Positions 8,792-24,881 of a stretch of DNA of 58,816 nucleotides are shown here, piece by piece; position 1 is the first letter of the stretch; every line of letters begins with the position of its first letter. The notes beneath the pieces were generated by a model. That model was not told the origin of the DNA and made no database searches. It saw nothing but the letters and a program-made list of their open reading frames with translations. Source of the stretch: Treponema sp. UBA4319. GTDB lineage: Bacteria > Spirochaetota > Spirochaetia > Treponematales > Treponemataceae. A program made the position numbers and the translations under genes. The stretch lies in NCBI GenBank assembly GCA_002393865.1, contig DGUD01000196.1:1-58816 (forward strand), given 5' to 3'.

Positions 8792-8874
8792 TCTCTGTCT
8801 GGCTGTCAGCAGTGTGTATAGCTGCCGCTGATGTATATGATTTGTGGAGCTACGGCATCCAAGGAGCGCAGATT

Positions 8875-9087
8875 ATGCCTTTGTCATTCTCTAAGACTGG
8901 TGATGTGGTTCAGGTTTCCAGAATAAACGGAAATGAGTCCGTCAAAAAGCATTTGTCGGACTTGGGCTTTGTTGTGGGAGAAAAGGTGTCGGTGATATCT
9001 GCGATAGGCAACGGGAATATAATCGTCAAGGTAAAGGATTCCCGCGTCGCTATAGACAGATTGCTGGCAGACAAGATTATCGTTTGA
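8875..9087 (+). CDS. feoA: FeoA-domain protein (first copy)
   Basis: 70 residues from ATG 8875, preceded by AAGGAG. It is a single SH3-like FeoA domain (LSDLGFVVGEKVSVIS... then VKVKDSRVAIDRLLADKIIV), the expected length for FeoA. FeoA is a small cytosolic partner of the ferrous-iron permease FeoB. The start was chosen over 8812 because the upstream residues are not FeoA-like and the ribosome site lies here. It is followed by a second FeoA (9306) and feoB (9531), after a 218-nt gap that holds a hairpin. Two FeoA genes in one operon are common in anaerobes. Confidence 0.85.
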   Translation: MPLSFSKTGDVVQVSRINGNESVKKHLSDLGFVVGEKVSVISAIGNGNIIVKVKDSRVAIDRLLADKIIV

Positions 9088-9103
9088 CATGTTGCTTTTC
9101 TTA

Positions 9104-9129
9104 CGGGGAGGTGTTTTCTGTTCTCCCCG
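9104..9129 (+). terminator. Hairpin between the two feoA genes (attenuator or weak terminator)
   Basis: CGGGGAG (9104-9110) pairs with CTCCCCG (9123-9129) across a 12-nt loop. The tail is CCCTCCTTTTG, so termination would be partial. Confidence 0.4.
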
Positions 9130-9274
9130 CCCTCCTTTTGTGTGTTTATCAGTTTTTTTATAGCTTGCGTGTCAGCGTAGGAAATTGCCATGCCCGTGGT
9201 GGTGCTGAGGCGCTTTCCGCATTCGCCTTGAAAAAATCTCTGCGATGGGGTTTTTGTAAGTAGGGTCAGAAGAA

Positions 9275-9293
9275 GCAGGTTTTTGAGGCCTGC
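9275..9293 (+). repeat. Small hairpin repeat, copy 1
   Basis: A 19-nt GCAGG...CCTGC hairpin unit lies just ahead of the second feoA. A copy differing at one base lies at 11760-11778 ahead of the Cys-rich gene. Confidence 0.5.
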
Positions 9294-9305
9294 TCAGGAG
9301 TTTAT

Positions 9306-9527
9306 ATGAAGTCTTTGAAAGATGCTGCCGTCGGAACGACGGTAAAAGTAAAACGACTTGCTGGCGAGGGGGCGCTTCGCCGTCGTCTTATGGATATGGG
9401 GTTTACGAATGGCTGTGAGGTTTTTATCAGGAAAGTTGCTCCGCTTGGCGACCCCGTTGAGGTCACTGTCCGCGGATATGAGCTCAGCGTCCGCAAAGCG
9501 GATGCGGAATGTATAGAGGTGGAGTAA
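9306..9527 (+). CDS. feoA: FeoA (second copy, next to feoB)
   Basis: 73 residues, a complete single FeoA domain (RRLMDMGFTNGCEVFIRKVAPLGDP, then VRGYELSVRKADAECIEVE). AGGAG lies just upstream of ATG 9306. It ends 3 nt before feoB, so the pair is almost certainly co-translated. Known role: cytosolic partner needed for full FeoB activity. It matches the FeoA consensus better than the first copy (it keeps the LRR-MDMG core), so this is probably the main FeoA and the first copy an accessory one. Confidence 0.92.
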   Translation: MKSLKDAAVGTTVKVKRLAGEGALRRRLMDMGFTNGCEVFIRKVAPLGDPVEVTVRGYELSVRKADAECIEVE

Positions 9528-9530
9528 TCT

Positions 9531-11708
9531 ATGGCTAAGATTAAAATTGCGCTTGCGGGAAACCCGAACTGCGGAAAGACGACGATGTTCAATTCCCTGA
9601 CGGGTGCCGCGCAGTATGTCGGCAACTGGCCGGGAGTCACTGTAGAGAAGAAGGAGGGAAATCTGAAGGGCGACAAGGATATTGCCGTGACGGATCTTCC
9701 CGGTATCTATTCGCTCTCTCCGTATACGAACGAGGAAGTCGTGAGCCGCGATTATCTTGCGAGCAAAGAGCCGTCTTCCGTCCTTAATATCGTTGACGCT
9801 ACCAATATCGAGCGTAACCTGTACCTTACGACGCAGATTCTTGAGCTCGGCAAGCCGGTCGTCATCGCGCTGAACATGGTCGATGCCATGCGCAAGTCCG
9901 GCGCCAAGATTGACGTGAAGAAGCTGTCTGAGCGCCTCGGCTGCAAAATCGTGGAGACCGTTGCCCTGCATGGCGACGGCGTAAAGGAAGCGGCTCAGGC
10001 TGCCGCTGACGAGGCGCGCAAGGCGTCAGTGCGTGTTCCGGGCGCATGTTTTGCTTCCGATGTGGAGGCGGTGATTTCCGAGATGGAAGGGCTGCTGCCT
10101 TCCTCCGTGGAGAACCATCTGAAACGCTGGACTGCGATAAAGGTGCTTGAGCGGGATTCTGTTGTCCTCGCGCGCCTTGCGCTGTCTGCTGATAGCTCTG
10201 CAAAGGCTGAGGCGCTTACAAAGAAGCTTGAGTCTGCAAAGGATGATGACATTGAGTCCATCATCACGAACGAGCGTTACAATTATATCACGGGCTTGCT
10301 GAAGGGAATCCTTGTAAAGCCGAAGGAAAAGATGACTGTCTCCGACAAGATAGACAGCATCGTTACGAATCGTATTCTCGGTATCCCGATTTTCATACTG
10401 GTCATGTGGTTCGTCTACTGGGTCGCGGTATCCACGGTCGGTACGATGGCTACGGACTGGGCGAACGACTCCTTTGTCGGTGGCATACAGGGCTGGGTAG
10501 AGGAAGCCCTTGGCAATGCGGGCGCAAATGAAATCCTCGTTGACTGTATCGTGAACGGTGTAATCGGTGGTTTGGGCGCTATTTTTGGCTTCCTGCCGCA
10601 GATGGCGATTCTCTTTCTGCTGCTCTCTATCCTTGAGGACTGCGGCTACATGGTCCGCATCGCGTTCGTCATGGACAGGCTGTTCCGGCATTTCGGGCTT
10701 TCCGGCAAATCCTTTATCCCGCTGCTGATTTCTTCCGGCTGCGGCATTCCCGGTATCATGGCGAGCCGTACCATAGAGAATGACAACGACCGCCGTATGA
10801 CTATCATGACGACGACGTGGATTCCCTGCGGCGCAAAGCTGCCTGTCATCGCCCTGCTGGCGGCGGTCATCGGTTCCAAGCTTACCGGCGGGGATGCATC
10901 CTTTATCGCTCCGCTCATGTACCTTATCGGCATTGCCGCGGTGCTGGTTGCGGCCGTCTGCCTTAAAAAGACAAAGCCGTTCCACGGGCCTGCGGCTCCC
11001 TTCGTCATGGAGCTGCCCCAGTACCATATCCCGCAGGTAAAGACTGTTCTTCTGCATACGTGGGAGCGCGTCAAGAGCTTTATCATAAAGGCTGGTACTA
11101 TCCTGTTTATCGCATGTCTTATCATGTGGTTCCTCTCAAGCTATGGCTTTGGTGAGGATGGATTTGGTCTTGTTGACCCCAACGATTCAATCCTTGCAAA
11201 GATTGGTGGTGTAATCCGCTATATCTTTATCCCGCTTGGCTTTGGTGGTGCTGAAGGCGGCTGGCAGGCTGCGGCCGCATCTCTTTCCGGCTTCTCCGCA
11301 AAAGAGGCGATTGTCTCTACGATGGGTGTTCTTGCGAACGTGGATCCCGATGTCGCCGAGGCGGCGCTGGAGGAAGAGGAGGCAATCTCTACGGTGGTCG
11401 GTGCCGTGGGCTCATGGTTCCCGACGGGAATCGCGGCGTTCAGCTTCCTGCTGTTCAACCTGCTGGATTCGCCGTGTCTTGCGGCCATTGCCACGATGGC
11501 AAACGAGCTGAACGACCGCAAGTGGTTCTGGTTTGCCATTCTGTTCCAGAATCTCTGCGCGTATGCCGTGACTTTGATTGTGTTCCAGTTGGGAATGCTT
11601 TTTGTGCACGGAGTCTTTGGCGTGTGGACGGTCATCGCGTTCTTGCTGCTGGCATTCATTCTGTTCGCCTTGTTCAGAAGGAATCCTTATAAGAGCATGA
11701 AGGCGTAA
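9531..11708 (+). CDS. feoB: FeoB ferrous iron transporter (first system)
   Basis: 725 residues. The N-terminal G domain shows G1 GNPNCGKTT (10-18), G2 around GVTVEKKEG, G3 DLPG (about 55-58) and G4 NMVD (about 117-120), then a guanine-dissociation-inhibitor-like helical region. The C-terminal two thirds are membrane spans with conserved Cys and gate motifs (for example ISSGCGIPGIMASR and WIPCGAKLP). Inner-membrane Fe(II) uptake driven or gated by nucleotide hydrolysis. It is 51 residues longer than the second FeoB in this window (22527). A strong terminator-like hairpin follows at 11716, but the operon may read through into the Cys-rich gene and the RND genes. Confidence 0.95.
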   Translation: MAKIKIALAGNPNCGKTTMFNSLTGAAQYVGNWPGVTVEKKEGNLKGDKDIAVTDLPGIYSLSPYTNEEVVSRDYLASKEPSSVLNIVDATNIERNLYLTTQILELGKPVVIALNMVDAMRKSGAKIDVKKLSERLGCKIVETVALHGDGVKEAAQAAADEARKASVRVPGACFASDVEAVISEMEGLLPSSVENHLKRWTAIKVLERDSVVLARLALSADSSAKAEALTKKLESAKDDDIESIITNERYNYITGLLKGILVKPKEKMTVSDKIDSIVTNRILGIPIFILVMWFVYWVAVSTVGTMATDWANDSFVGGIQGWVEEALGNAGANEILVDCIVNGVIGGLGAIFGFLPQMAILFLLLSILEDCGYMVRIAFVMDRLFRHFGLSGKSFIPLLISSGCGIPGIMASRTIENDNDRRMTIMTTTWIPCGAKLPVIALLAAVIGSKLTGGDASFIAPLMYLIGIAAVLVAAVCLKKTKPFHGPAAPFVMELPQYHIPQVKTVLLHTWERVKSFIIKAGTILFIACLIMWFLSSYGFGEDGFGLVDPNDSILAKIGGVIRYIFIPLGFGGAEGGWQAAAASLSGFSAKEAIVSTMGVLANVDPDVAEAALEEEEAISTVVGAVGSWFPTGIAAFSFLLFNLLDSPCLAAIATMANELNDRKWFWFAILFQNLCAYAVTLIVFQLGMLFVHGVFGVWTVIAFLLLAFILFALFRRNPYKSMKA

Positions 11709-11715
11709 ACTGTGG

Positions 11716-11750
11716 AACCGGGGGCACATTACCCCCGGTTTTGTTTTTTA
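11716..11750 (+). terminator. Rho-independent terminator after feoB
   Basis: AACCGGGGG (11716-11724) pairs with CCCCCGGTT (11732-11740) across a 7-nt loop, followed by a T-rich tail (TTGTTTTTT). Confidence 0.8.
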
Positions 11751-11759
11751 TACGGGGCT

Positions 11760-11778
11760 GCAGGTTTTTGCGGCCTGC
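11760..11778 (+). repeat. Small hairpin repeat, copy 2
   Basis: GCAGG...CCTGC hairpin, identical to 9275-9293 except for one base in the loop, upstream of the FeoB-associated Cys-rich gene. Confidence 0.5.
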
Positions 11779-11821
11779 TGATTGCGGATCTTCGTCCCTG
11801 ATTTTTTTATAGGAGTTTTTT

Positions 11822-11998
11822 ATGGCTGCGACGGTCTTGTGTTCTGTATTGTTGCTTTCTTATACTGGCTATGTCATCTATCGCTGTGTGGATTCTGTGC
11901 GAAGGGCAAAGAAAACCGGTCAGCCTATCCAGTGCTGCGGCTGCTCTGCCTGCAAAACAGGGAACTGCGCCTGCCGTCAGAAGGAGATGCAATCATGA
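11822..11998 (+). CDS. FeoB-associated Cys-rich membrane protein
   Basis: A 58-residue protein read directly from the sequence. It starts at ATG 11822 after AGGAG and ends at TGA 11996-11998. Residues 3-21 form a membrane span (VLCSVLLLSYTGYVIYRCV), then a basic linker, then a Cys-rich tail with CCGCSAC and NCAC motifs (seven Cys in about 16 residues). This is the standard layout of FeoB-associated Cys-rich membrane proteins, which lie just downstream of feoB in many bacteria and may bind metal as it enters. Its stop overlaps the ATG of the RND exporter by 4 nt (ATGA), so the two are translationally coupled, which is unusual. Confidence 0.85.
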   Translation: MAATVLCSVLLLSYTGYVIYRCVDSVRRAKKTGQPIQCCGCSACKTGNCACRQKEMQS

Positions 11999-14373: not shown

Positions 14374-14563
14374 GAAGAACAGGGCGCCTGACCGGAAGCA
14401 GCCGTTTCCGGTCAGCCCTGCGCGCAGCGCTTTTGGCAACGCCCGCTTTGTGGAAAGCGGAAAGCGTGCCCGGAATCGGAGGAATAGACCTGCCGGGCAT
14501 GCGTGAGGCAGTTTCAAAGCACATCGGCTTTTGGGACTTGCCTATATATCTATAGGAGTGTGT

Positions 14564-15364
14564 ATGAAAAGAGGAATAAAGGCCGCAGCCTGTGCCCTTT
14601 TGGGAGCTCTGCTCTGTTCCGCGCTTGTTGCGCAGGAGATGAGCGCGTATGAAATCATAAAGAAGTCGGACGAGGTGCCTTCTGCCGATACAAGCTCGTA
14701 CAAGGCGACGATGACGCTTACGAACAAGAAGGGGCAGAAGCGCGTGCGCGAGGTTCTGATGCGCTCAAAGGACGACGGCTCTGTGACCAAGACGGTCATC
14801 GTCTTTACGACGCCGAAGGATGTTGCCGGAGTCGGCTACCTTATGCATGAGTATGCTAAAAAGGCAGACGGCACGACCCCTGAGAGCGACAACTGGCTCT
14901 ATATGCCCGCGCTGAAAAAGGTCAGGCGCATCAGCGGCGCAGGAAAAGCGGACGACTTTATGGGCACCGACTTTACCTATGAGGACATGGGTGACCGTGA
15001 CATTGACAAAGACAACTACACCTTGCTTGGCTCGGAGACGGTGGACGGCGTGGACTGCTGGAAGATTGAATGCCTTGCAAAGGATACGACGGAGAAAAAT
15101 CCGCGCCGCATCGTCTGGATACGCAAGGACAATTATATACTCCAGAAGGGCGAATTCTATGACAAGCAGAATAATCTGCAGCGCGAGCTGACGTGCAGCG
15201 GCATCCATCTGCAGGACGGCTTCTGGACGACGGACACGATGCTGATGAAGAATGTCCTCACGAACCATTCTACGGTGCTTGAGATGAAGGACGTAAAATA
15301 TAATCTGGCTGTTGACGACAATATGCTTACCGTCTCAGCCCTTGAGAGGGGAATCATCCGATGA
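14564..15364 (+). CDS. LolA-like outer-membrane lipoprotein-sorting family protein
   Basis: 266 residues from ATG 14564 (TAGGAG just upstream; the frame is open to 14531 but that start has no ribosome site). A signal peptide runs to about ALVAQEM. The mature part matches the LolA-like family annotated 'outer membrane lipoprotein-sorting protein': YEDMGDRDIDKDNYTLLGSE and RRIVWIRKDNYILQKGEFYD segments. It is likely a periplasmic carrier with a half-barrel lipid pocket. The family regularly sits beside an MMPL exporter and a beta-barrel protein, as here. The stop overlaps the next start (ATGA), so the pair is coupled. Confidence 0.85.
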   Translation: MKRGIKAAACALLGALLCSALVAQEMSAYEIIKKSDEVPSADTSSYKATMTLTNKKGQKRVREVLMRSKDDGSVTKTVIVFTTPKDVAGVGYLMHEYAKKADGTTPESDNWLYMPALKKVRRISGAGKADDFMGTDFTYEDMGDRDIDKDNYTLLGSETVDGVDCWKIECLAKDTTEKNPRRIVWIRKDNYILQKGEFYDKQNNLQRELTCSGIHLQDGFWTTDTMLMKNVLTNHSTVLEMKDVKYNLAVDDNMLTVSALERGIIR

Positions 15365-16818
15365 CGATGCCGGGCAGGCCTTTCAGCGGGAAGGCGGGAT
15401 TTTACGGATGGCTGCGTCCTTGTATCGGAGCTGCCGCAAAAGGCTTTTGCTGCCTCGTTGCGGGTCTGCTGGCAATGTTTTCGGCCGGAGCGCAGGAAAT
15501 CCAGTTCTCCGGGGATGCGGAGACCCTGCTGGGGGTCGCCCTTCCATATACGGACAACGCATGGGATTTTGTTGTCGCCCAGCTGAAGCTGAACGGCGTG
15601 ATCGATGTCTTTGCGGATGAGAGCACGCTGCATGTTTCGGCCGGGGGAATCTTTGACGGGCTGCAGGGGCAGTCAACTGACGATGTGCTTTCCGTTACCG
15701 CGGGCGACGGAGCTTTTTCCGCCCGCCTGAAGGAAGCCTATTTTGATTATAACGGCGGCATCTGGTCTGTACGGCTGGGGCGGCAGATTTCTGCATGGGG
15801 AAAGGCTGACGGCCTGACCGTCACGGACATCCTGTGCCCCAAAGACATGACGAACCTGTTTGCCGGCGATTACAGCGACAGCTCCCTTGGAATCGATGCG
15901 CTCCGCGTCTCTCTGAATCTGATGAGCTTTGTCTGTGACGCCTACTGGATTCCTGTGTTCACGCCGAGCTCGCTGCCGCTTGCGGAAGGAAACCCGCTCC
16001 GCAAGGTGCTCTTGCCTTCCTCCGTATCATCAAACGGCTTCACCTTGGATATCGCGCTTGGCGATTTAGTCAAGCCGGAGCTTGAGCTGCAGAACGGGGA
16101 ATATGCCCTGAAGCTTGCGGCCTATTTGCCGTTCGCGGATTTCAGCGCCTATGCCTTCTACGGATGGGACGATGTTCCTGTCATGACCTATGCGCTGACG
16201 GATGCGTCGGGGAAAAAGCTTGATTTCTCCAATCCAATGCAGTTCCTGCTGCTGCCGACAGCGCAGGTAAGAGTCGGAGGCGAATACAAGCGGATGGCGA
16301 TGTTCGGTGCGGATGCCGCCGTGCCCGCGGGGCCGTTTACGATACGGCTTGAGGGAGCCTTTTTCCCGCAGCGCTACTTTGCCACGACCGCAGAAAAGCA
16401 GATTGCCGCGCAAGTCAATGTCTCTGTGGAAGACTCCTTTGTCCAGCGCAACCAGCTTGCGCTGATGGCTGGCCTTGACTGGATGCCGGGCAGCTGGACG
16501 CTTACCGCCCAGTATTATCTGGATGCCGTGCTCGGAGATTTGGATGATATAGACCGGGAGGAGCGCGTTGCCCATAAAGCGACGCTGAGCGTTTCCAGAA
16601 GCTTTCTGGGAGGAAACCTGGAGCTTTCCGCCCAAGGAATTCTGGGACTGAACGATTTTGACGCCGCCGTTATACCGAGCGTGTCATACGCCCTTTCCGA
16701 CCAGATTTCGCTCTCTTTGTCCGGGAACTTTTTTATCCCCGGTCCTGACAATGACGGGGAATACGGGGCGTATAAGGATTTGAGCAGCGTCACTTTCAGC
16801 GGAAAATTCTCATTCTGA
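15361..16818 (+). CDS. Outer-membrane beta-barrel protein (DUF1302-like)
   Basis: 485 residues from ATG 15361, overlapping the previous stop. Signal peptide within residues about 25-45 (LVAGLLAMFSAGAQ). The rest alternates hydrophobic and polar residues as in beta strands and ends in SFSGKFSF-type strands with a terminal Phe, as expected for an outer-membrane barrel. No named domain is certain from sequence alone. By context it resembles the DUF1302-type partner of RND plus LolA-like systems, in which the barrel and the soluble carrier move lipid-like cargo across the envelope. The 3' end overlaps the minus-strand HMA gene by 9 nt. Confidence 0.7.
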   Translation: MTMPGRPFSGKAGFYGWLRPCIGAAAKGFCCLVAGLLAMFSAGAQEIQFSGDAETLLGVALPYTDNAWDFVVAQLKLNGVIDVFADESTLHVSAGGIFDGLQGQSTDDVLSVTAGDGAFSARLKEAYFDYNGGIWSVRLGRQISAWGKADGLTVTDILCPKDMTNLFAGDYSDSSLGIDALRVSLNLMSFVCDAYWIPVFTPSSLPLAEGNPLRKVLLPSSVSSNGFTLDIALGDLVKPELELQNGEYALKLAAYLPFADFSAYAFYGWDDVPVMTYALTDASGKKLDFSNPMQFLLLPTAQVRVGGEYKRMAMFGADAAVPAGPFTIRLEGAFFPQRYFATTAEKQIAAQVNVSVEDSFVQRNQLALMAGLDWMPGSWTLTAQYYLDAVLGDLDDIDREERVAHKATLSVSRSFLGGNLELSAQGILGLNDFDAAVIPSVSYALSDQISLSLSGNFFIPGPDNDGEYGAYKDLSSVTFSGKFSF

Positions 16819-17196
16819 GCCGCCAGCTGCCATCGTGATAAGCGTGTATCCTGCGTCGGAGAGGGCTTTGTCAAAGCTTTCTCTTGCGACAGGCTGCTTG
16901 CTGAGCACGGCGGCGCTTTTCTTCTCAAGGCTGACACGTCCCCATACGCCCTCCATGCTGTTCAGCGCGTTCTCTACGGCGCGGGCGCAGTTTCCGCAGT
17001 GCATGCCGTCAATCTGCAGCGTGTAGCTGTGCGGGTAATGCGAGGTGTCTTTGTCTTTGACCCTGATTTTTTTTGCGGGGGCGTCCTTTGCGCCGCAGCA
17101 GGACGAGCCGTAGCGTATCCTGTGGACAATGCTTTTTACCGCAAGCGCGACCGCTGCGACCAGAAGGACGATGATTATCGCTGATGCTGATGTCAT
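16810..17196 (-). CDS. Membrane-anchored HMA (heavy-metal-associated) domain protein
   Basis: 128 residues from ATG 17196 (AAGGAGG upstream). An N-terminal span (4-22) is followed by a basic stretch, a GSSCCG motif (Cys33, 34), a linker, and an HMA domain with GMHCGNC (Cys67 and Cys70) and a ferredoxin-like fold to residue 128. It would bind soft or transition metal at the cytoplasmic face, as a chaperone or sensor. It is divergent from the DUF3793-led operon and shares its control region, where operator-like boxes sit at both promoters. Iron context suggests a role in iron or copper handling; the metal is not decided by sequence. Confidence 0.85.
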   Translation of the reverse strand: MTSASAIIIVLLVAAVALAVKSIVHRIRYGSSCCGAKDAPAKKIRVKDKDTSHYPHSYTLQIDGMHCGNCARAVENALNSMEGVWGRVSLEKKSAAVLSKQPVARESFDKALSDAGYTLITMAAGGSE

Positions 17197-17210
17197 TGGA
17201 AGACCTCCTT

Positions 17211-17236
17211 GCTAATAAACGTTAGTAAAAAACAAC
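17211..17236 (-). promoter_or_regulatory. Operator-like boxes at the HMA gene promoter
   Basis: GCTAATAAACGTTAGT (17211-17226) is a palindrome (CTAA-N6-TTAG). The overlapping GTTAGTAAAAAACAAC (17221-17236) resembles the box at 17289. On the minus strand a TTGACA (complement of 17246-17241) lies just upstream, so the boxes overlap the -10 region. Confidence 0.45.
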
Positions 17237-17253
17237 TTTTTTGTCAATGATGC

Positions 17254-17282
17254 TTGACAGCACGAAAAAGAGAAGATATACT
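17254..17282 (+). promoter_or_regulatory. Strong sigma-70 promoter of the DUF3793/flavodoxin/ATPase operon
   Basis: TTGACA (17254-17259), a 17-nt spacer, then TATACT (17277-17282). An exact palindromic box begins 7 nt downstream. Confidence 0.8.
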
Positions 17283-17288
17283 ACTTTT

Positions 17289-17304
17289 GTTAGTTTATGC
17301 TAAC
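17289..17304 (+). promoter_or_regulatory. Palindromic operator GTTAG-N6-CTAAC
   Basis: GTTAGTTTATGCTAAC is a perfect inverted repeat with 5-bp arms at the predicted transcription start. The TTAG/CTAA arms recall DtxR/MntR-type sites. Binding by an iron-responsive repressor is an inference. Confidence 0.6.
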
Positions 17305-17321
17305 TATTTGCGGGGTTTGTT

Positions 17322-17909
17322 GTGGGCTTTGACCAGACATTGCTCTATTTCGGGGCGCCAGCGCTTTGCGGCCTGAAGGCGGCGAATCTCGTTTCTGTTG
17401 CGGACGAGCTTGCGGATGCCAACGGGCAGAATATCCTCGCAATCAACGAGGAGCTTGCGCAGAGCGGCAGGAAGATTGTGCGGATAAAACGGGGTGGTGG
17501 CAGGACGCTTTTTTTCCTGTATGACAGGAATATGCTGGGGCTGGCCGTTTCAAAAAAAAATGTGCAGCGTTATCTTGCGAAAAAAAACTATCCTGTTTAT
17601 AATGGCTTGGATGCAATTCTTGCAGAGCTTCTTCGCAGGCTTTCGAGTCAGACAGATTTTCCGCACGAGATAGGCATATTCCTTGGTTACCCGCTGGCAG
17701 ACGTCATTCTTTTTGAGAAATCAAAAGGAAAGGGCTGCCTGTATTCGGGATTGTGGAAGGTGTACGGGAACGTTCAGGAATCTGTCTGCAAGATGACCTT
17801 GTACAGGAACTGCTGCGTGAGGTGCAGCCGCCTTTTTGAGCGCGGCATGAAACTCACGGACATCAGCAGGAACTATAATAAGATTGCGGGGCTGCCGGAA
17901 CCGGTATGA
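17322..17909 (+). CDS. DUF3793 family protein
   Basis: 195 residues with a GTG start at 17322. It matches DUF3793: an N-terminal CAPAL-like GAPALCGLKAANLVS (11-25), a central LFFLYDRNML motif, and a C-terminal GIFLGYPLADVILF with Cys-rich CLYSGLWKVYGN and CCVRCSRLFERG segments. Soluble, function unknown. The family is often found next to flavodoxins and Feo genes in anaerobes, exactly as here. First gene of a plus-strand operon whose promoter carries a perfect palindromic box, so it is probably iron-regulated. Confidence 0.85.
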   Translation: MGFDQTLLYFGAPALCGLKAANLVSVADELADANGQNILAINEELAQSGRKIVRIKRGGGRTLFFLYDRNMLGLAVSKKNVQRYLAKKNYPVYNGLDAILAELLRRLSSQTDFPHEIGIFLGYPLADVILFEKSKGKGCLYSGLWKVYGNVQESVCKMTLYRNCCVRCSRLFERGMKLTDISRNYNKIAGLPEPV

Positions 17910-17935
17910 CTATGGCGTCCCGCCATGGAGGAAAC

Positions 17936-18352
17936 ATGAAGAAGGCTGTGGTCTATGCATCGACGACGGGCAATACGGAGGCAATGGCGCTTGCTGTCGC
18001 TGAGGGAGCAAAGGATTCTGGTGCGGATGTCGTGCTTGCGACGGCGGACACCGCGGATGCCGCGGACGTGCTCTCTGCCGACGTGCTCTTCCTTGGAAGC
18101 CCTGCCATGGGTGACGAGGTGCTTGAGGATTCCATGGAGGAATTCTTCACGAAGATTGAGGGAAGTATCAGCGGAAAGAAGGTTGCCCTTTTTGGTTCCT
18201 ATGACTGGGGCGACGGGCAGTGGCTCCGGGATTGGGCGGGACGCGTCTCTTCTCAGGGCGCGACCGTAATCAACGGTGAAGGCCTGAAGCTGCATCTTGC
18301 GCCGGAGGCCGATGGCCTTGAGGAATGCAAGAAGCTTGGTGCTCAGAATTAA
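17936..18352 (+). CDS. Flavodoxin (short-chain)
   Basis: 138 residues from ATG 17936, preceded by GGAGG. The FMN phosphate loop YASTTGNTEAMA is at 6-17, followed by the acidic ATADTADAADVLSADVLFLGSPAMGDEVLEDS region and the C-terminal GSYDWGDGQWLRDW flavin-contact segment. It is a short-chain flavodoxin of usual length. Flavodoxin replaces ferredoxin under iron shortage in many bacteria, which fits its place in an apparently iron-controlled operon, 26 nt after the DUF3793 stop. Confidence 0.9.
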   Translation: MKKAVVYASTTGNTEAMALAVAEGAKDSGADVVLATADTADAADVLSADVLFLGSPAMGDEVLEDSMEEFFTKIEGSISGKKVALFGSYDWGDGQWLRDWAGRVSSQGATVINGEGLKLHLAPEADGLEECKKLGAQN

Positions 18353-18410
18353 GCCTGCACATGTGGCTGTGTGTGGTTAATTATATATTAATACATAAGG
18401 AGATGTCAGT

Positions 18411-18620
18411 ATGACGGAAGGCACAAAAAAATTTTTGTGGGGCGTGGCTGCAGGGCTTGCTGCTGCAGTGGTCATCAAGTCTGATCCGTTCCGCAAGGGC
18501 TGCGCACGGGTCATAGCCGGAGGAATCCAGCTGAAGGATGATGCCAAAGAGTATTTTGAGACAATCAAAGAAGATGCCGAGGACGTAAAAGCGGAGAACG
18601 ACGCCAAGGCAAAAGCGTAA
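18411..18620 (+). CDS. Small glycine-rich membrane-anchor protein (DUF6110/FezA-like candidate)
   Basis: 69 residues from ATG 18411, preceded by AAGGAG. Residues 8-22 form a short hydrophobic, glycine- and alanine-rich segment (WGVAAGLAAAVVIKS). The rest is a charged amphipathic helix rich in Lys, Asp and Glu. No catalytic motif. The gene lies 70 nt before a heavy-metal P-type ATPase. Small proteins of this shape beside such ATPases are annotated DUF6110, and ferrosome clusters carry a comparable small membrane protein. I recall this link without being able to test it here, so the family name is tentative. Confidence 0.6.
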   Translation: MTEGTKKFLWGVAAGLAAAVVIKSDPFRKGCARVIAGGIQLKDDAKEYFETIKEDAEDVKAENDAKAKA

Positions 18621-18690
18621 GGGGATGCCGGATGATTCGCGCGCGGATTGTCCGGCTTTCCTATAATCTCAGGGTACAAGGTATCTATAT

Positions 18691-20796
18691 ATGGAATTTA
18701 CAGTAAAGCATTCTCTTCCGGGCAGAATCCGGGTTGCTTACAATAAGAGGCGTATAACTAAGCGGCAGGCTGCTTTGGCTCAGAGTCTGCTTTCTGTGCA
18801 AGAAGGAATGGACGATGTCACGGTGAATTATGTGACAGGAACATTCCTTTTGTATTATGACACGGCAGTCCTTTCCGAGAAAAAAATCAAGGCGTATTTT
18901 ATGGCGCTTTCGGACAAGTATCTGGATGACCGTGAGCTGCTCAACTCCGTCGATGAGCCGCAGGAGCAGGACAACCTGCTCTTTGACCTTACGATGATGG
19001 TAATCGGGCATTACGGCAAGCTGCTGCTGCCGCCGCCGCTGCGCCTGCTGCTGCGCGTGTGGTCGCTGGCTCCCCGTATCGTCAAGGGAATGCAGCATGT
19101 CGCGCAGGGGAATCTTTTTAAGTCAGAGGTGCTCGATGCGACTGCCATCGGTATGGCTCTGCTGACCGGCGACACAAAGACAGCCTCGAACATCAATTTC
19201 CTGCTGAACATCGGCGACACGATAGAAGAATTCACCAAGAAAAAATCTTATAGCGACCTTGCGGACAGGCTCTTGTCCCAGAATGACCAGGTGCAGCTGG
19301 TGCAGGGTAATACGGAAAAGACCGTAAGGCTCGCGATGCTCAAGCAGGATGATGTCGTGGTCGTGCGTACAGGGGGCATGATTCCGGCGGACGGTGATAT
19401 TATCCGTGGCGAAGGCCTCGTGAACCAGGCATCGATAACAGGGGAGCCGCTTGCGGTGGAAAAGCGGACCGGGCTGACCGTTTTTGCGGGGACGATAGTG
19501 CAGGAGGGCGAGCTCTATATCCATGTGCGCGCCGTCGGAAGCCAGACGAAAGTCCAGAATATCCTTGCGATGATTGACAAATCCCAGCAGCTCAAAGTCT
19601 CTTCCCAGGTGCGCTCCGAGCTCCTTGCCGACCAGCTGGTAAAGTACAACTTCCTCCTTTCCCTCGTGGTCTTTCTTGCTACGCGGAACGTCACAAAGGT
19701 AATGGCGACCCTGATGGTGGACTATTCCTGCGCGATGAAGCTTGCCGCCCCGATTGCGGTTCTGAGCGCCATGAAGGAGGCGAGCGATTACGGCATAATC
19801 GTAAAGGGCGGAAAATTCCTTGAGGATGTCTCCCGCGCGGACACGGTTGTCTTTGACAAGACCGGGACGCTGACCGCCGCAGTTCCCCGGCTTTCCCGTA
19901 TCATCGCCTTCGGGGGGCGCAGCGAGGACGACGTGCTGCGGACAGCCGCCTGCCTGGAGGAGCATTTTGCCCATCCTGTGGCCAATGCCATCGTGCATGC
20001 CGCAAAGGAGCGCGGCATCGAGCACCCTGAGGAGCATGCGAAGGTCGAATACATTGTTGCCCACGGTATCGCCACCGAACTGAACGGAAAGCGCCTGCTG
20101 ATTGGCAGCTACCATTTTGTCTTTGAGGATGAGAAGACGCAGCTTCCGGAGCACTTCGATGAGCTCAAGAAAACAGCGATAGAGCGGGGCGAGTCCTTGC
20201 TCTACCTTGCGGAGGAGCGGCAGCTGGTAGGGGTGTTTGCGATTAACGATCCCGTGCGGGACAACGCGGCTGATATCATCCAGCGCCTGCATGAGAGCGG
20301 CATAAAGAACTGCACGATGATTACGGGCGACGACGAGGGCGCCGCAAAAACGGCCGCCAAGCTGACGCATATTGACCATTATATTTCTCAGGCTCTGCCG
20401 GAGGACAAGGTTGCATATATCAAGAAGCAGCAGAAAAAAGGCCATAAGGTCATCATGATTGGGGACGGCATAAACGATGCGCCTGCGCTTGTTGCGGCCG
20501 AGACCGGCATTGCCATGGGTGACTGCGCCGCGATTACAGGCGAGACGGCGGATATAGTCCTGAACGCTGATGACGGGCTTGCCGGACTGTACCGTACCAG
20601 AGTCATGGGGCTGCGGCTGCTGGATAAAATCGATACGAATAACCGGAGCATCGTAAAAGTCAACACGGCGCTCATGATGGCGGGGCTTTTTGGCTTTGTG
20701 AGCCCCTCGCTTGCCGCTGTGCTGCATAACGCCTCTACGATTTTGTTCTGCGCAAAATCAGCGCGGCCGCTGCTGGAGCCTTCCCATGCAGTATAA
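18691..20796 (+). CDS. Heavy-metal P1B-type ATPase with atypical metal motif (FezB-like candidate)
   Basis: 701 residues. Residues 1-90 resemble an HMA_2 domain (LPGRIRV at 9-15) without the CxxC pair. The ATPase core is complete: TGE (250-252), phosphorylation loop DKTGT (Asp389), HP (428-429), TGD and GDGIND (591-596). The membrane motif that is normally CPC, SPC or TPC is replaced by SCA (346-348, in DYSCAMKLAAP). The final spans hold the HN-S-T and ARPL residues typical of P1B pumps. The SCA variant and degenerate HMA_2 domain recall the P1B-6 subgroup that includes the ferrosome ATPase FezB. Likely moves iron across the inner or an internal membrane. It overlaps the next gene by 11 nt. 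Confidence 0.8.
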   Translation: MEFTVKHSLPGRIRVAYNKRRITKRQAALAQSLLSVQEGMDDVTVNYVTGTFLLYYDTAVLSEKKIKAYFMALSDKYLDDRELLNSVDEPQEQDNLLFDLTMMVIGHYGKLLLPPPLRLLLRVWSLAPRIVKGMQHVAQGNLFKSEVLDATAIGMALLTGDTKTASNINFLLNIGDTIEEFTKKKSYSDLADRLLSQNDQVQLVQGNTEKTVRLAMLKQDDVVVVRTGGMIPADGDIIRGEGLVNQASITGEPLAVEKRTGLTVFAGTIVQEGELYIHVRAVGSQTKVQNILAMIDKSQQLKVSSQVRSELLADQLVKYNFLLSLVVFLATRNVTKVMATLMVDYSCAMKLAAPIAVLSAMKEASDYGIIVKGGKFLEDVSRADTVVFDKTGTLTAAVPRLSRIIAFGGRSEDDVLRTAACLEEHFAHPVANAIVHAAKERGIEHPEEHAKVEYIVAHGIATELNGKRLLIGSYHFVFEDEKTQLPEHFDELKKTAIERGESLLYLAEERQLVGVFAINDPVRDNAADIIQRLHESGIKNCTMITGDDEGAAKTAAKLTHIDHYISQALPEDKVAYIKKQQKKGHKVIMIGDGINDAPALVAAETGIAMGDCAAITGETADIVLNADDGLAGLYRTRVMGLRLLDKIDTNNRSIVKVNTALMMAGLFGFVSPSLAAVLHNASTILFCAKSARPLLEPSHAV

Positions 20797-21121
20797 TTAT
20801 TTTCCCGGCAGGCTGCGCGTGCGCGATTCCGTATTCAGGGTGGAAGAAATCCGCGCTGCCGCTATCCGTGCGGTGCGTCTGCTTGCCGATGACGTGCAGA
20901 TACAGTACAACGAAAAAACATCGAGCATCCTTGCGGTATATGACGCGTCAAAGCTCAATGTCGATGACCTGCGCCCGCTGCTTCCCTATCTCCTTAAGAT
21001 TGAGCCGAAGGTCAGGTTCTATACGCCTGCCAAAAAACAGGATATCCTTGACGGCATTCAGGAGATTGAGCGGCGGATAGCGCAGGGCTTGTCCGGAAAA
21101 CAGCAGCCGCGGCAGCAATAG
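20786..21121 (+). CDS. Stand-alone HMA_2-like protein
   Basis: 111 residues from ATG 20786 (GGAG upstream), overlapping the ATPase stop, so translation is coupled. The N-terminus FPGRLRVRD repeats the LPGRIRV pattern of the ATPase N-terminal domain, with the same lack of a CxxC pair. The rest reads as a ferredoxin-like fold (VQIQYNEKTSSILAVYD) and a charged helical tail. It could be a partner of the ATPase and may match the HMA-like member (FezC-type) of ferrosome clusters. No enzymatic motif is seen. Confidence 0.65.
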   Translation: MQYNYFPGRLRVRDSVFRVEEIRAAAIRAVRLLADDVQIQYNEKTSSILAVYDASKLNVDDLRPLLPYLLKIEPKVRFYTPAKKQDILDGIQEIERRIAQGLSGKQQPRQQ

Positions 21122-21149
21122 CGCCGTTTTTTGCCGCCGGAAGCCGAAG

Positions 21150-22130
21150 ATGAATCTGTCCGATTTTTTTGCTCAGCTGTACAGCCGCGGCGTATCGGGG
21201 AACGGGATAGAGCGTTTCTTCTGCAGCGACGACGGGAAGAGCTCCCTCTACTTTTCCTCTCCTTTCCGCGGCGTGTTCTGCTGGGTAAACGATATTTTCT
21301 GCAGGGAAATCCCGATGGACGTGCAGGGGGATTTCTCCGGCTTCTCCCTTAATTTTTGCCAGGAAGGTGCCTGCGAGGTTTCGCTCCTCAACGGGAATTT
21401 CGTCTATGTCTCAAAGGGTGTGCTGAGCATGGATACCAGCATGGTAAAGAGTGGGCATTACTATCCTTCGTCGCGCTACCGGGGGCTGGAGCTTGTGTTT
21501 GATTTGTCGGCCATCGCCGCAGACGGCGGGGAGCTTGCCCGCTTTGGTTTTGACCCCTTTGCATTCGAGCGGCTTCTGTACAAAGAGGCGGCGAGCGGCA
21601 GCCTTATGGTGATGCCGTCTCCTGCATGGCAGCGGAAAGCCGCTTTCCTTGCGGACAAGATGGCATCCTTTTCCGTCTCTATGGCAGAAATCCGTTTTTA
21701 TGTGATGGAGCTGCTTTTTCTGCTTGCGCATGATTCCGGAAACAGAAAGTCGCTGCATCTGCCGAGCCTTACGAAGGGGCAGCGGCTGCTTGCCACGGAG
21801 GCCGAGCGGCTGCTTTCCGCTGATTTGTCCAGACATCTTACGGTTGAGCAGCTTTCCGCTATGCTTGGGGTGAGCCCGTCTTCGCTCAAGAAATATTTTT
21901 CGCAGTGCTATGGGGAATGCATTTCCGTGTACCTGCACAGAAAGCGGATGGAGCATGCCGCCCGTCTGCTGGCGCAGGGGAGTCTTTCCGTGGGAAAAAT
22001 CGGCGAGGCGGTGGGCTACCAGAATCAGGGCAAATTCGGCATGGCCTTTAAGGAATTTTTTGGCGAGACACCTTTGGAGTACAGGCGCTGCCATAACTCG
22101 CCGGATACAAGATTTTCAGGACAGTTTTAG
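21150..22130 (+). CDS. AraC-family transcriptional regulator
   Basis: 326 residues. The C-terminal about 100 residues contain two helix-turn-helix motifs of the AraC type (LTVEQLSAMLGVSPSSLKKYFSQCYG and VGKIGEAVGYQNQGKFGMAFKEFFGETPLEYRR). The N-terminal 215 residues have no recognised domain and could sense a metal or siderophore-like ligand, as in the AraC regulators of iron uptake. It lies at the end of the ATPase block and just before the second feo operon, so it may control one or both. A terminator follows at 22164. Confidence 0.88.
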   Translation: MNLSDFFAQLYSRGVSGNGIERFFCSDDGKSSLYFSSPFRGVFCWVNDIFCREIPMDVQGDFSGFSLNFCQEGACEVSLLNGNFVYVSKGVLSMDTSMVKSGHYYPSSRYRGLELVFDLSAIAADGGELARFGFDPFAFERLLYKEAASGSLMVMPSPAWQRKAAFLADKMASFSVSMAEIRFYVMELLFLLAHDSGNRKSLHLPSLTKGQRLLATEAERLLSADLSRHLTVEQLSAMLGVSPSSLKKYFSQCYGECISVYLHRKRMEHAARLLAQGSLSVGKIGEAVGYQNQGKFGMAFKEFFGETPLEYRRCHNSPDTRFSGQF

Positions 22131-22163
22131 TTTGGTGGGATTGCTGTAAGTCCCGCGTCTCAC

Positions 22164-22194
22164 GGCGCCCGTTTGGGAGCGGCGCCTTTTTTTT
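22164..22194 (+). terminator. Rho-independent terminator after the AraC gene
   Basis: Two copies of self-complementary GGCGCC (22164-22169 and 22181-22186) form the stem, followed by eight T (22187-22194). Confidence 0.8.
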
Positions 22195-22256
22195 GCATGC
22201 CAGCAGGAGCAAAAAAATACCGGAGGGGATAGAAAAAAAGTTCCTTTTTGTATAGA

Positions 22257-22272
22257 GTTGTTTATATTTAAC
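22257..22272 (+). promoter_or_regulatory. Operator-like box upstream of the second feo operon
   Basis: GTTGTTTATATTTAAC shares the GTT...TAAC outer arms and TTTAT core with the palindrome at 17289-17304. It lies 23 nt ahead of feoA in an AT-rich promoter region. Confidence 0.4.
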
Positions 22273-22294
22273 TTGTGTAAATAAGAGGTTATGT

Positions 22295-22516
22295 ATGAAA
22301 ACGTTAACTGACCTTGCGAAGGATGCGAAAGGCGTCGTTGCCTCGGTGAGCGGGGATTCCCGTTTTGTGAGCCGGATAACATCCATCGGGATTACCCCTG
22401 GCTGCGAAGTAGTGATGGTTAAGAACGAAAAGCACCGTCCGCTTCTGGTGTACGCCAGGGATACGATGATTGCGCTGAACCGCAACGAATGCAGGAATAT
22501 TTTGATTGAGGGCTGA
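22295..22516 (+). CDS. feoA: FeoA (third copy, second feo operon)
   Basis: 73 residues, a single FeoA domain (SRITSIGITPGCEVVMVKNEKHRPLLVYARDTMIALNRNECRNILIEG). Leading AGAGG ribosome site. It departs from the consensus more than the copy at 9306 but keeps the fold-defining GITPG and ALNRNE pattern. The stop lies 10 nt before the FeoB start, which is preceded by GAGGAG. Partner of the second FeoB. Confidence 0.85.
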   Translation: MKTLTDLAKDAKGVVASVSGDSRFVSRITSIGITPGCEVVMVKNEKHRPLLVYARDTMIALNRNECRNILIEG

Positions 22517-22526
22517 GGAGTCTGTT

Positions 22527-24551
22527 ATGAACAAGGATACGGAAAAAGTAATCGCGCTGCTCGGTCAGCCGAATTCAGGAAAATCGACGCTGTTCAATGC
22601 GCTTACCGGGCTGAAGCAGCATGTCGGCAACTGGCCGGGAAAAACGGTCGAAAAAAAAGAAGGGCATTTTGAGCATGGCGGCGTAAAGTATCTGGTTGCC
22701 GACCTGCCCGGCACCTACAGCCTTTCTGCAAATTCCGACGAGGAGATGATAACGCGTGACTACATCGCGGGCGGAACCGCCGATGTGGTCTGCATCCTTG
22801 CGGACAGCTCCCAGCTGCAGCGCAGCCTGTACATGCTTGCGGATTACGCGGGTATCTCCGTGCCGGTCTTCCTTGTGCTGAACATGAGCGATGTCGCCGC
22901 CGAGCAGGGAAAGAAAATCGACGCCGATGCGATTTCCGCAAAGCTGGGGATTCCCGTGGTGCTTTTTTCCGCGCAGGATACCAAGCACTACGACGGCTTT
23001 TTTGCCGCGCTTGAGACCGCGCTGTCCAAAAAGACGGTGCTGGATGCATCTGCACTCGCCGCAAAATACGAGCAGATTGCGTCGTACCGGGAATTAAAGG
23101 GGCTTGTGCCGGATAATGTGATACCGGGATATTCTTCTGTGTGGCTTGCGGCAAAGGCGCTGGAAGGCGATGCCCCTGTCCGCGCGAAAATCCGATCCGC
23201 GCTGGACAGCGGTAAACGCTCTGCCTTTGACAAGGCTGTCGCGGCGGAAGAGAAAGGCATGCTTCTTACGGGCGAGCGGAAATTTGCATGGATTGACGAG
23301 GTCTTGCAGGGAAGCCTGAGCAGCAAAAAAGAACGCCGCTCTCTTGGTTCCTTTGACCGCCTGATAACGCATCGTGTCTGGGGCAAGCCGGTTGTCGTGC
23401 TTACTGTTCTGTTGGGGCTTATCGCATCCTTTATTCCGGCGCTTCCTTTCATGGGGATTGGCAGTGCCTTTGGTGCTTTGATAAATCCTGTCAGCTCCCT
23501 GCTGAACAATATAGGCTGCCCTGCGATTATTACTGCGATTCTTTGTGATGTCGTAATAAATTCTCTAAGCTTTATCCTGAAAATGCTGGGCTTTGTCTTT
23601 GGTGTCACGCTTGTATTCGGACTTCTGGAAGAGGTCGGCGTGATGGCTCGGATCTCTTATGTCTTTGATAATACAATGGCAAAGCTGGGGCTTCAGGGAA
23701 AATCCGTTATGCCTTTCCTTGTAAGCTTTGGCTGTACAATGGGCGGAGCTGCCGGCGCCCGCGTCATTGATAACTGGGGACAGAAGGTTCTGACAATTGC
23801 GCTGGCTTGGGCTATTCCTTGTGGTGCGGCATGGTCTGTTGTGCCGATGCTTTCGTCAGTCTGGTTCGGTGCAGGTGCGCCCCTTGTGATTGTCGCAATC
23901 CTTGCGGTAATGATTCTCCACATGTGGCTTACTTCAAAGCTTTTTGGCCGCTCTCTCGTAAAAAAAGAAGACCGCTACGGGATGATTATGGAGCTTCCTC
24001 CGTATCACAAGCCGAAGTGGGGCGCACTTTTCAGATACGTTCTTGGCCGGACAAAAGATACATTCTTCCGGGTACTGAAGGTTGTGCTTCTTGTTTCCTT
24101 TGTCTTCTGGCTTCTTACCTTTACGACAAGCGGCTCTATGGACAATTCAGTCCTGTATAAGGTCGGAAAGTTTATTGAGCCTGTAACCAAGATTTTTGGT
24201 CTGGGCTGGAAAACCTTCATGGCCTTTATCGCTTCTTCAATCGGAAAGGAAGGTGCCATCGGCGTTTTAAGTACAATCTTTACGGATCACAGCATGCTGA
24301 CGGTCGGCGGTACGGTTGCAGGTGGCGCAGTTGCGAATATCAATGAGCTCCTTGTCGCAAATGTAGCAAAGCCTGAGGCGCTGGCCTTTATCTTTGCGAT
24401 TACCTTCAACATGCCGTGCATCGTCGCCCTTGCCGCGACGTATCAGGAGACGCATTCCGCAAAGTGGACGGCTATCATCGCGTTGTACTACACGGCGCTT
24501 GCGCTGGTGCTGGCCTGCATTGCCTATCACATCGGGCTGCTTATCTGGTAG
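22527..24551 (+). CDS. feoB: FeoB ferrous iron transporter (second system)
   Basis: 674 residues from ATG 22527 (chosen over 22506 for its GAGGAG site and FeoB-like N-terminus). G1 GQPNSGKST (11-19), G3 DLPG, G4 NMSD; then the membrane part with SFGCTMGGAAGAR and AIPCGAAWS Cys motifs. It is shorter than the first FeoB and replaces the canonical GNPNCGKTT loop by GQPNSGKST, so the two are clearly distinct paralogues. Inner-membrane Fe(II) uptake. Followed by a FeoC-like gene, which the first system lacks. Confidence 0.93.
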   Translation: MNKDTEKVIALLGQPNSGKSTLFNALTGLKQHVGNWPGKTVEKKEGHFEHGGVKYLVADLPGTYSLSANSDEEMITRDYIAGGTADVVCILADSSQLQRSLYMLADYAGISVPVFLVLNMSDVAAEQGKKIDADAISAKLGIPVVLFSAQDTKHYDGFFAALETALSKKTVLDASALAAKYEQIASYRELKGLVPDNVIPGYSSVWLAAKALEGDAPVRAKIRSALDSGKRSAFDKAVAAEEKGMLLTGERKFAWIDEVLQGSLSSKKERRSLGSFDRLITHRVWGKPVVVLTVLLGLIASFIPALPFMGIGSAFGALINPVSSLLNNIGCPAIITAILCDVVINSLSFILKMLGFVFGVTLVFGLLEEVGVMARISYVFDNTMAKLGLQGKSVMPFLVSFGCTMGGAAGARVIDNWGQKVLTIALAWAIPCGAAWSVVPMLSSVWFGAGAPLVIVAILAVMILHMWLTSKLFGRSLVKKEDRYGMIMELPPYHKPKWGALFRYVLGRTKDTFFRVLKVVLLVSFVFWLLTFTTSGSMDNSVLYKVGKFIEPVTKIFGLGWKTFMAFIASSIGKEGAIGVLSTIFTDHSMLTVGGTVAGGAVANINELLVANVAKPEALAFIFAITFNMPCIVALAATYQETHSAKWTAIIALYYTALALVLACIAYHIGLLIW

Positions 24552-24596
24552 GCCGGGACTTTCCCTTGCGTTCTTGGGCTGTGCCGGGAGGCTTGT

Positions 24597-24881
24597 ATGG
24601 AAGCATTGCTTGATTTGTTGAAAGACGGTACTTCCCGTTCCGTGGAGCTGCTTGCGGTTGAGCTGCATACCACAACGGAGGACGTGCGGCGCCAGATGGA
24701 GTTTCTGGAGCGGGCGGGCTATATCCGCCGCGTCCTCAATACGGGGGCTGACTGCGGGAATGGGGGCTGCGCCGGGTGCAGCGCTCATGCAAAGTCCGGA
24801 AAGACCTGCTCCGGCTGTCTCCCGGATGGCGGCTTTGCCCACATGGGCGAGATGTGGGAGTTTGTGCGCCGCCCTTCCTGA
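24597..24881 (+). CDS. FeoC-like winged-helix Fe-S protein
   Basis: 94 residues from ATG 24597 (GGGAGG upstream). The first 45 residues form a winged helix (SRSVELLAVELHTTTEDVRRQMEFLERAGYIRRV). A loop with five Cys follows (DCGNGGCAGCSAH and KTCSGC), as in FeoC-type proteins that bind a 4Fe-4S cluster in the wing. FeoC may sense oxygen or iron and protect FeoB. Last gene of the second feo operon, 45 nt after feoB, followed by a strong terminator. Confidence 0.8.
   Translation: MEALLDLLKDGTSRSVELLAVELHTTTEDVRRQMEFLERAGYIRRVLNTGADCGNGGCAGCSAHAKSGKTCSGCLPDGGFAHMGEMWEFVRRPS

Follow-up and report, generated by a model that had tools for sequence, protein, structure and literature searches.

Multi-gene operons of the ferrosome (fez) type have been tested in Shewanella putrefaciens and Rhodopseudomonas palustris. 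In Clostridioides difficile, FezA and FezB are both required for ferrosomes and are repressed by Fur according to PMC12574912, and the fezAB genes are listed as CD630_05910-05920 in PMC11651100. The FezC protein of Desulfovibrio magneticus is described in PMC11334425 as a DUF4405-like haem cytochrome. The locus analyzed here belongs to a Treponema and lies on the contig DGUD01000196.1 (Treponema sp. UBA4319, assembly GCA_002393865.1), whose positions 1 to 58,816 are referred to below as the window; it comprises a fezA homologue, a fezB homologue and a third gene encoding a stand-alone HMA_2-like protein. The original prediction, made from the DNA sequence alone, had proposed a ferrosome (fez-type) locus at this place, and the claim is supported by the FezA and FezB homologues, by the ATPase tree and by the P1B-6 residues in transmembrane helices 4 and 6 (TM4 and TM6). 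The identity of the locus as a fez cluster is almost certain, and sequence comparison makes it probable that it gives rise to iron-filled compartments. The window genome is a metagenome-assembled genome (G000, the window being contig C175) of 2.76 Mb in 225 contigs, 84% complete.

The fezB homologue (18691..20796, plus strand) encodes a P1B-6-type ATPase of 701 amino acids. It is recognized by the Pfam models E1-E2_ATPase (expectation value, E, 6e-35) and, over residues 4-69, HMA_2 (E 5e-7), and its first 80 residues, HMA_2 N-terminus included, contain no cysteine. The catalytic residues are intact, with DKTGT at residue 389, TGE at 250, HP at 428 and GDGIND at 591; SCA is found at 346 in TM4, within DYSCAMK, and HN at 679 in TM6. 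The structure model of the protein has a pLDDT (local confidence) of 76 and a pTM (global confidence) of 0.60. An SCA-type TM4 is one of the residue signatures of P1B-6 ATPases. According to PMC9374683, HN in TM6 characterizes the P1B6 group, and a table in a review (PMC7558416) assigns Fe(II) to P1B-6. Both signatures were followed through 48 FezB-type ATPases originating from 41 spirochaete loci, two C. difficile loci, Azospirillum, Vibrio, Arcobacter, Deinococcus and one faecal contig. SCA is present in 47 of them, Deinococcus displaying SCV, versus CPC in 11/11 comparison ATPases, and HN occurs within the last 60 residues in all 48. The full TM4 motif D[YF]SCA[MLI]K is shared by the 41 spirochaete loci and both C. 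difficile loci. The protein clusters closest to the window ATPase are 99 and 88% identical to it, followed at 71-74% by Treponema sp., Spirochaetaceae and Spirochaetales.

Two C. difficile genomes, HC132 and CD160, provided the reference for a known FezB. Each contains one strong match to the window ATPase, of 551 and 549 bits respectively, the next best reaching 208 and 205 bits, and in each a DUF6110 gene lies upstream of that ATPase, at a distance of 43 nt in HC132 and of about 580 nt in CD160. As the match is by far the best in both genomes and the partner-ATPase order is the same, we infer that these pairs correspond to the fezAB of the literature and their ATPases to the tested FezB. The ATPase tree comprises 54 rows and was obtained by a quick IQ-TREE search with SH-aLRT values only, after omission of the near-copies L056 and L060 and of the partial rows L017, L018 and L085. 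A split with an SH-aLRT of 100 separates 38 spirochaete and seven other FezB-type rows from nine CPC ATPases, two of which come from the window genome. Within the former, 37 spirochaete rows form a group with C. difficile, Deinococcus and the faecal contig (SH-aLRT 95), the spirochaete row L019 falling just outside; Deinococcus, Vibrio, Azospirillum, Arcobacter, L019 and CPC rows are among the long branches flagged by the program. The placement on which the original prediction had staked its claim, in the FezB/P1B-6 group and not in a copper, zinc or cobalt clade, was thus obtained. The faecal contig (L045, MT835525.1, labeled 'Bacteriophage sp.', from human faeces) carries a fezA-fezB pair standing near that of C. 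difficile in the tree, and is possibly a misfiled bacterial contig.

The small protein encoded upstream of the ATPase (18411..18620, plus strand, 69 amino acids) consists of an N-terminal hydrophobic helix with a GxxxG motif and of a charged C-terminal part. Its match to Pfam DUF6110 is below the cut-off (E 7e-4) and becomes clear with a family profile. This FezA profile was built from 28 same-genus sequences and run on 1648 open reading frames (ORFs), in which the C. difficile stretches are included twice. It retrieves the gene preceding FezB in other spirochaetes and then the C. difficile partners (CD160, E 6e-10; HC132, E 2e-9), which are its best matches outside Spirochaetota. Pfam itself recognizes both partners as DUF6110 proteins (HC132, E 1.5e-23; CD160, 2e-23). 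Next come matches in the faecal contig, Deinococcus, Vibrio and Azospirillum (3e-6 to 4e-5); the upstream gene of Arcobacter is missed (0.62), and the best match in the CPC control loci is at 0.0036. GxxxG is present in 47/47 FezA-family sequences counted, the interrupted L016 being excluded. What the original prediction had described as a small glycine-rich anchor is, on the evidence of the profile search and of the C. difficile partners, a FezA homologue that Pfam alone barely detects. The fezA frame of locus L016 (genome G021) contains an in-frame TGA and is unbroken in its close relative L078. In the fezA-fezB gap of the window, a 13-bp hairpin (18627-18656) could set unequal amounts of FezA and FezB; in G003, where fezA and fezB lie just about 13 nt apart, the hairpin is not conserved.

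The third gene (20786..21121, plus strand, 111 amino acids) overlaps the ATPase stop by 11 nt. Its likely start is the ATG at 20786, versus TTG 20711 in the mechanical ORF list. The match to Pfam HMA_2 is at E 0.051 only and the family profile is clear, so that the coupled stand-alone HMA_2-like protein announced by the original prediction is indeed present. The protein contains neither cysteine nor histidine and is consequently no classical metallochaperone. Its structure model (pLDDT 73) displays the order beta-alpha-beta-beta-alpha. The motif YxPGRLRxR is kept in 27/27 aligned members, and GR[IVLM]R is found in most of the FezB N-termini inspected, that of Arcobacter being without it. A profile of same-genus third genes matches spirochaete FezB N-termini weakly (2e-4 to 0.7) and detects relatives in other clusters (Azospirillum, E 2e-9; Vibrio, 1e-7; Arcobacter, 3e-4); a separate, iterated profile also matches FezB N-termini (spirochaete best 2e-8). 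The third protein thus resembles the N-terminal domain of FezB, and a putative kinship to FezB specifically is suggested by the PGR[IL]R motif together with the match of the iterated profile.

The organization was examined in 41 spirochaete loci with flanks of up to 1.5 kb. A FezA-like ORF is found in 39 of them, including the interrupted one of L016, the misses being L017 and L018, whose contigs start inside or too near the ATPase. An HMA_2-like ORF is likewise found in 39/41, the exceptions being L009, at a contig end, and L085, which has a stop in the ATPase and no such gene after it; three of the four misses are thus located at contig ends. Since the same order recurs in spirochaete relatives, the three-gene order of the window is not a matter of chance. 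The ATPase is detected at E <= 1e-90 in 17/59 genomes, its own included, and in 16/36 within the genus. A phylum sample yields 35/295 at E <= 1e-80, of which 32 reach at least 400 bits, the other three displaying 31-32% identity.

The remaining features announced by the original prediction, namely DUF3793, flavodoxin and an AraC regulator, were all located on the plus strand around the three genes. A DUF3793 protein (17322..17909, E 9e-42) and a short-chain flavodoxin (17936..18352, TIGR01753 over cut-off) precede fezA, and an AraC-family regulator (21150..22130) begins 28 nt past the third gene. The genes from DUF3793 through araC are closely spaced, and 164 nt separate them from a ferrous iron uptake set (22295..24881, plus strand) composed of FeoA (22295-22516), FeoB (22527-24551) and a FeoC-like protein (24597-24881; E 0.0017, under cut-off). 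A second Feo set lies upstream (8872..11708, plus strand), with two FeoA (8872-9087 and 9306-9527) and one FeoB (9531-11708). Both Feo systems between which the locus was said to be set do exist, but the description holds only loosely: on the upstream side, 5.6 kb separate the set from the DUF3793 gene and contain MMPL, LolA-like and DUF1302 genes together with a minus-strand gene (16810..17196). The latter encodes a CopZ-like protein with an HMA domain, whose N-terminus resembles FeoB_associated (E 0.004, under cut-off), and a similar gene heads a feoA-feoB operon in the relatives G015 and G032. In 18 larger spirochaete regions, where matches were counted in the fetched stretch and several regions end at contig ends, DUF3793 and/or flavodoxin are present in seven, FeoB in two (G003 and G017) and AraC in two, several kb away (G015 and G024). 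The double-Feo context was consequently rejected as a component of the system, its adjacency not being conserved, and the AraC regulator, whose adjacency is not conserved at other fez loci either, is probably not a core part.

The run from DUF3793 to araC appears to lie behind one promoter and to be switched together with iron uptake. A sigma-70-like promoter (TTGACA-N17-TATACT, 17254..17282, plus strand) matches the consensus at 11/12 positions, in a window whose promoter scan is overall no richer than shuffles (4 versus a mean of 4.9). Six bases after its -10 hexamer lies a GTTAG-N6-CTAAC dyad, GTTAGTTTATGCTAAC (17289..17304, no strand assigned), directly before the DUF3793 gene. The HMA-domain gene is divergent from this dyad, and the dyad constitutes a candidate metal-regulator operator. 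With a matrix built from 33 sites the dyad scores 23.8, the best score in 30 simulated windows being 15.6, and it is the only window site above this null. Upstream of fezA, in 39 spirochaete regions of 130 nt whose start codons were picked by script and are perhaps wrong in some cases, TTAG-N6-CTAA occurs 15 times in 10 regions, versus a shuffle mean of 0.16 and maximum of 2, and spacers of 4, 5, 7 and 8 yield none. These counts are strong evidence of a real site and are no event count, the genomes being related and not independent. GTTAG-N6-CTAAC is found 11 times in the window genome versus 0 for the reversed control, and 36, 9, 7, 37, 37, 6, 9, 7 and 2 times in nine further genomes, versus 2, 0, 2, 3, 0, 0, 1, 1 and 1. 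Among the matches listed, 7/9 sites of G015 are located on its 106-kb fez contig, and 6/6 sites of G254 on its fez contig, at most 36 kb from fez.

According to Pfam, the genes behind these dyads include HMA-FeoA-FeoB and flavodoxin in both G015 and G032, DUF3793, an ATP-binding cassette (ABC) exporter and an MMPL transporter. In relatives, what fez seems to have in common with Feo is thus an operator-like dyad. A xylose isomerase-like gene behind a dyad is named by reading alone (no Pfam match at 1e-5), as is a MATE-like one. The dyads give the picture of a clustered Treponema regulon in which genes of iron uptake stand beside flavodoxin, pairs of ABC genes and metabolic enzymes that depend on metals, with sites on contigs C3, C88, C127 and C131 of G000, C12 of G015, C20 of G254, and C45 and C65 of G032. 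As for the regulator, DtxR-family genes are found close to fez in G003, on the contig bearing fez in G015 and once elsewhere in G000, which also has two FUR-family matches. TroR was rejected, as the 18-bp operator of Treponema denticola (TTTTGATATATCAAAA type), deduced from oligonucleotides in PMC2628430, differs from GTTAG-N6-CTAAC.

The mechanism that we propose is as follows. A metal-loaded repressor bound to GTTAG-N6-CTAAC would keep the operon off when metal is plentiful. Upon starvation, Feo import, flavodoxin and the Fez proteins would be made together, flavodoxin replacing the iron-sulfur ferredoxin. FezA, by means of its GxxxG helix, would gather FezB and shape a membrane compartment into which FezB would move Fe(II) from the cytosol, the iron being stored as mineral. 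Returning iron could thereby be buffered and banked. The third protein probably docks on the partner surface of the FezB N-terminal domain and may regulate or load the pump.

A number of observations weigh against this interpretation. The same-genus profile of the third gene scores CopA N-termini (7e-4 to 3.5e-3) about equal to spirochaete FezB N-termini, and Foldseek searches with the third-protein model returned nothing under E 0.001, metallochaperone and MerP appearing only at about 0.5-0.6. In the window the dyad precedes DUF3793 and not fezA directly, the gap between flavodoxin and fezA scoring -0.8; the AraC-feoA gap, with the feoA promoter, is without a good dyad (-0.6), the dyad with one mismatch is not enriched (2 matches versus 3.05 expected), and 29/39 fezA upstream regions are without the exact dyad. 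Dyads are also found upstream of enolase, of a member of the histidine-phosphatase family interpreted as phosphoglycerate mutase and, at a distance of 274 nt, of the exporter MntP; since these genes are not obviously iron-related, the metal sensed could be Mn or a different one. The other ten dyad sites of the window genome, inspected by eye, precede mixed genes, with an ABC-rich cluster on C3 and others without evident iron link. Finally, the literature searched, to which the primary ferrosome papers did not belong, yielded no data on granules, iron or metal specificity in spirochaetes.

The main rival explanation is an efflux platform of the PacL/CtpC kind, in which the DUF6110 protein would cluster and stabilize a plasma-membrane ATPase and the pair would export Fe, Zn or Mn, with no storage compartment. 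According to PMC9374683, PacL1 (DUF1490) is needed for CtpC zinc resistance, both proteins form foci, and DUF6110 is related and typically encoded with P1B6 ATPases; PMC13043812 reports that functional clusters require residues conserved in the membrane helix of PacL, among them two glycines, which recalls the invariant GxxxG of the FezA family. The TM4 of CtpC is nevertheless CPC (PMC9374683) versus SCA in the window ATPase, and the window FezA, with no histidine and one cysteine, has no PacL-type metal-binding tail. C. difficile FezA and FezB, with which the pairs of HC132 and CD160 are presumably identical, make ferrosomes (PMC12574912). The dyad of relatives, moreover, stands before both feo import operons and fezA, and export alongside import would be futile; because of this apparent co-control with iron import, storage is favored and the efflux platform is regarded as unlikely. 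Still less probable, and standing at a slim chance, is a P1B-6 pair devoted to another metal (Mn or Zn) within a general metal regulon, tied to ferrosomes by ancestry only. P1B-6 ATPases were without biochemical examination as of 2016 (PMC4932525), and the proximity of dyads to MntP and metal-dependent glycolytic enzymes would suit such a pair; iron is indicated instead by flavodoxin, Feo and DUF3793, which either lie near fez or follow the same dyad, and the metal-site residues match those of C. difficile FezB. An ordinary Cu, Zn or Co exporter with unrelated neighbours is highly improbable: the best NCBIfam models are indeed generic heavy-metal and cadmium-family ATPases and the nearest solved structures Cd, Cu and Zn ATPases, but the tree, the SCA and HN residues and the conserved DUF6110 and HMA_2 partners argue otherwise, and the window genome has two separate CPC ATPases besides the FezB homologue.

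Storage in ferrosomes being the preferred reading, a broader proposal is put forward tentatively: fezA, fezB and HMA_2 may form a three-part ferrosome kit whose third protein is related to, and detached from, the N-terminal domain of the pump, the dyad may unite ferrosomes, Feo and flavodoxin with glycolytic metalloenzymes in a single clustered regulon, and the ferrosome may stand in where ferritin is missing. Strong ferritin (E <= 1e-20) and FezB occur together in 1/59 genomes, own included (Fisher p 0.002), largely a between-family effect. The exclusivity is absent within the genus (36 genomes, p 0.35), which counts against the storage reading, and at a looser E <= 1e-13 the values are 0.039 for the 59 genomes and 1 for the genus; ferritin replacement was accordingly rejected as support. 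The window genome, 84% complete as it is, displays only a weak PF00210 match (E 1.6e-4). The locus would add a spirochaete branch to ferrosome biology, no ferrosome report for Treponema or spirochaetes having been found in the literature searched (two Nature ferrosome papers may list spirochaete FezB), and the operator candidate makes testable the idea that ferrosome production accompanies iron import instead of opposing it.

Compared with the known systems, PacL1-CtpC of Mycobacterium tuberculosis has in common with the window the pairing of a P1B ATPase, with HN in TM6, and a small membrane protein with a glycine motif. It differs in being zinc-induced and in having CPC in TM4 and a DUF1490 protein with a metal-binding tail, where the window has SCA and a DUF6110 partner. 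The fezABC of D. magneticus resembles the window by its P1B-6 ATPase FezB, and no DUF4405, hence no FezC of that type, was found among the 16 window proteins scanned (8872-24881). In Azospirillum (L046), Vibrio (L047) and Arcobacter (L049), as in the window, a YtxH/DUF6110-like protein directly precedes the ATPase and small HMA_2-type proteins are present, so that the HMA_2 accessory protein recurs across phyla; relative to the multi-gene fez-like clusters of Proteobacteria and Campylobacterota, Treponema has fewer genes and its HMA_2 gene follows the ATPase instead of preceding it. In C. difficile, neither locus displays an HMA_2 match after fezB, and the 11-12 kb inspected contain no match to Feo, DUF3793 or flavodoxin; FezA is nearly double the length of its Treponema homologue, and control is by Fur, versus a candidate dyad operator. 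In both species, nevertheless, a DUF6110 gene precedes the P1B-6-type ATPase (39-41% identity for FezA, 41-42% for FezB), and the ATPases have the same TM4 motif and an N-terminal domain, which in C. difficile carries GRIR. The Treponema fez locus thus belongs to a kind already described. It comes from a lineage on which the search found no report, and brings an operator candidate not met in the literature and a recurrent third protein.

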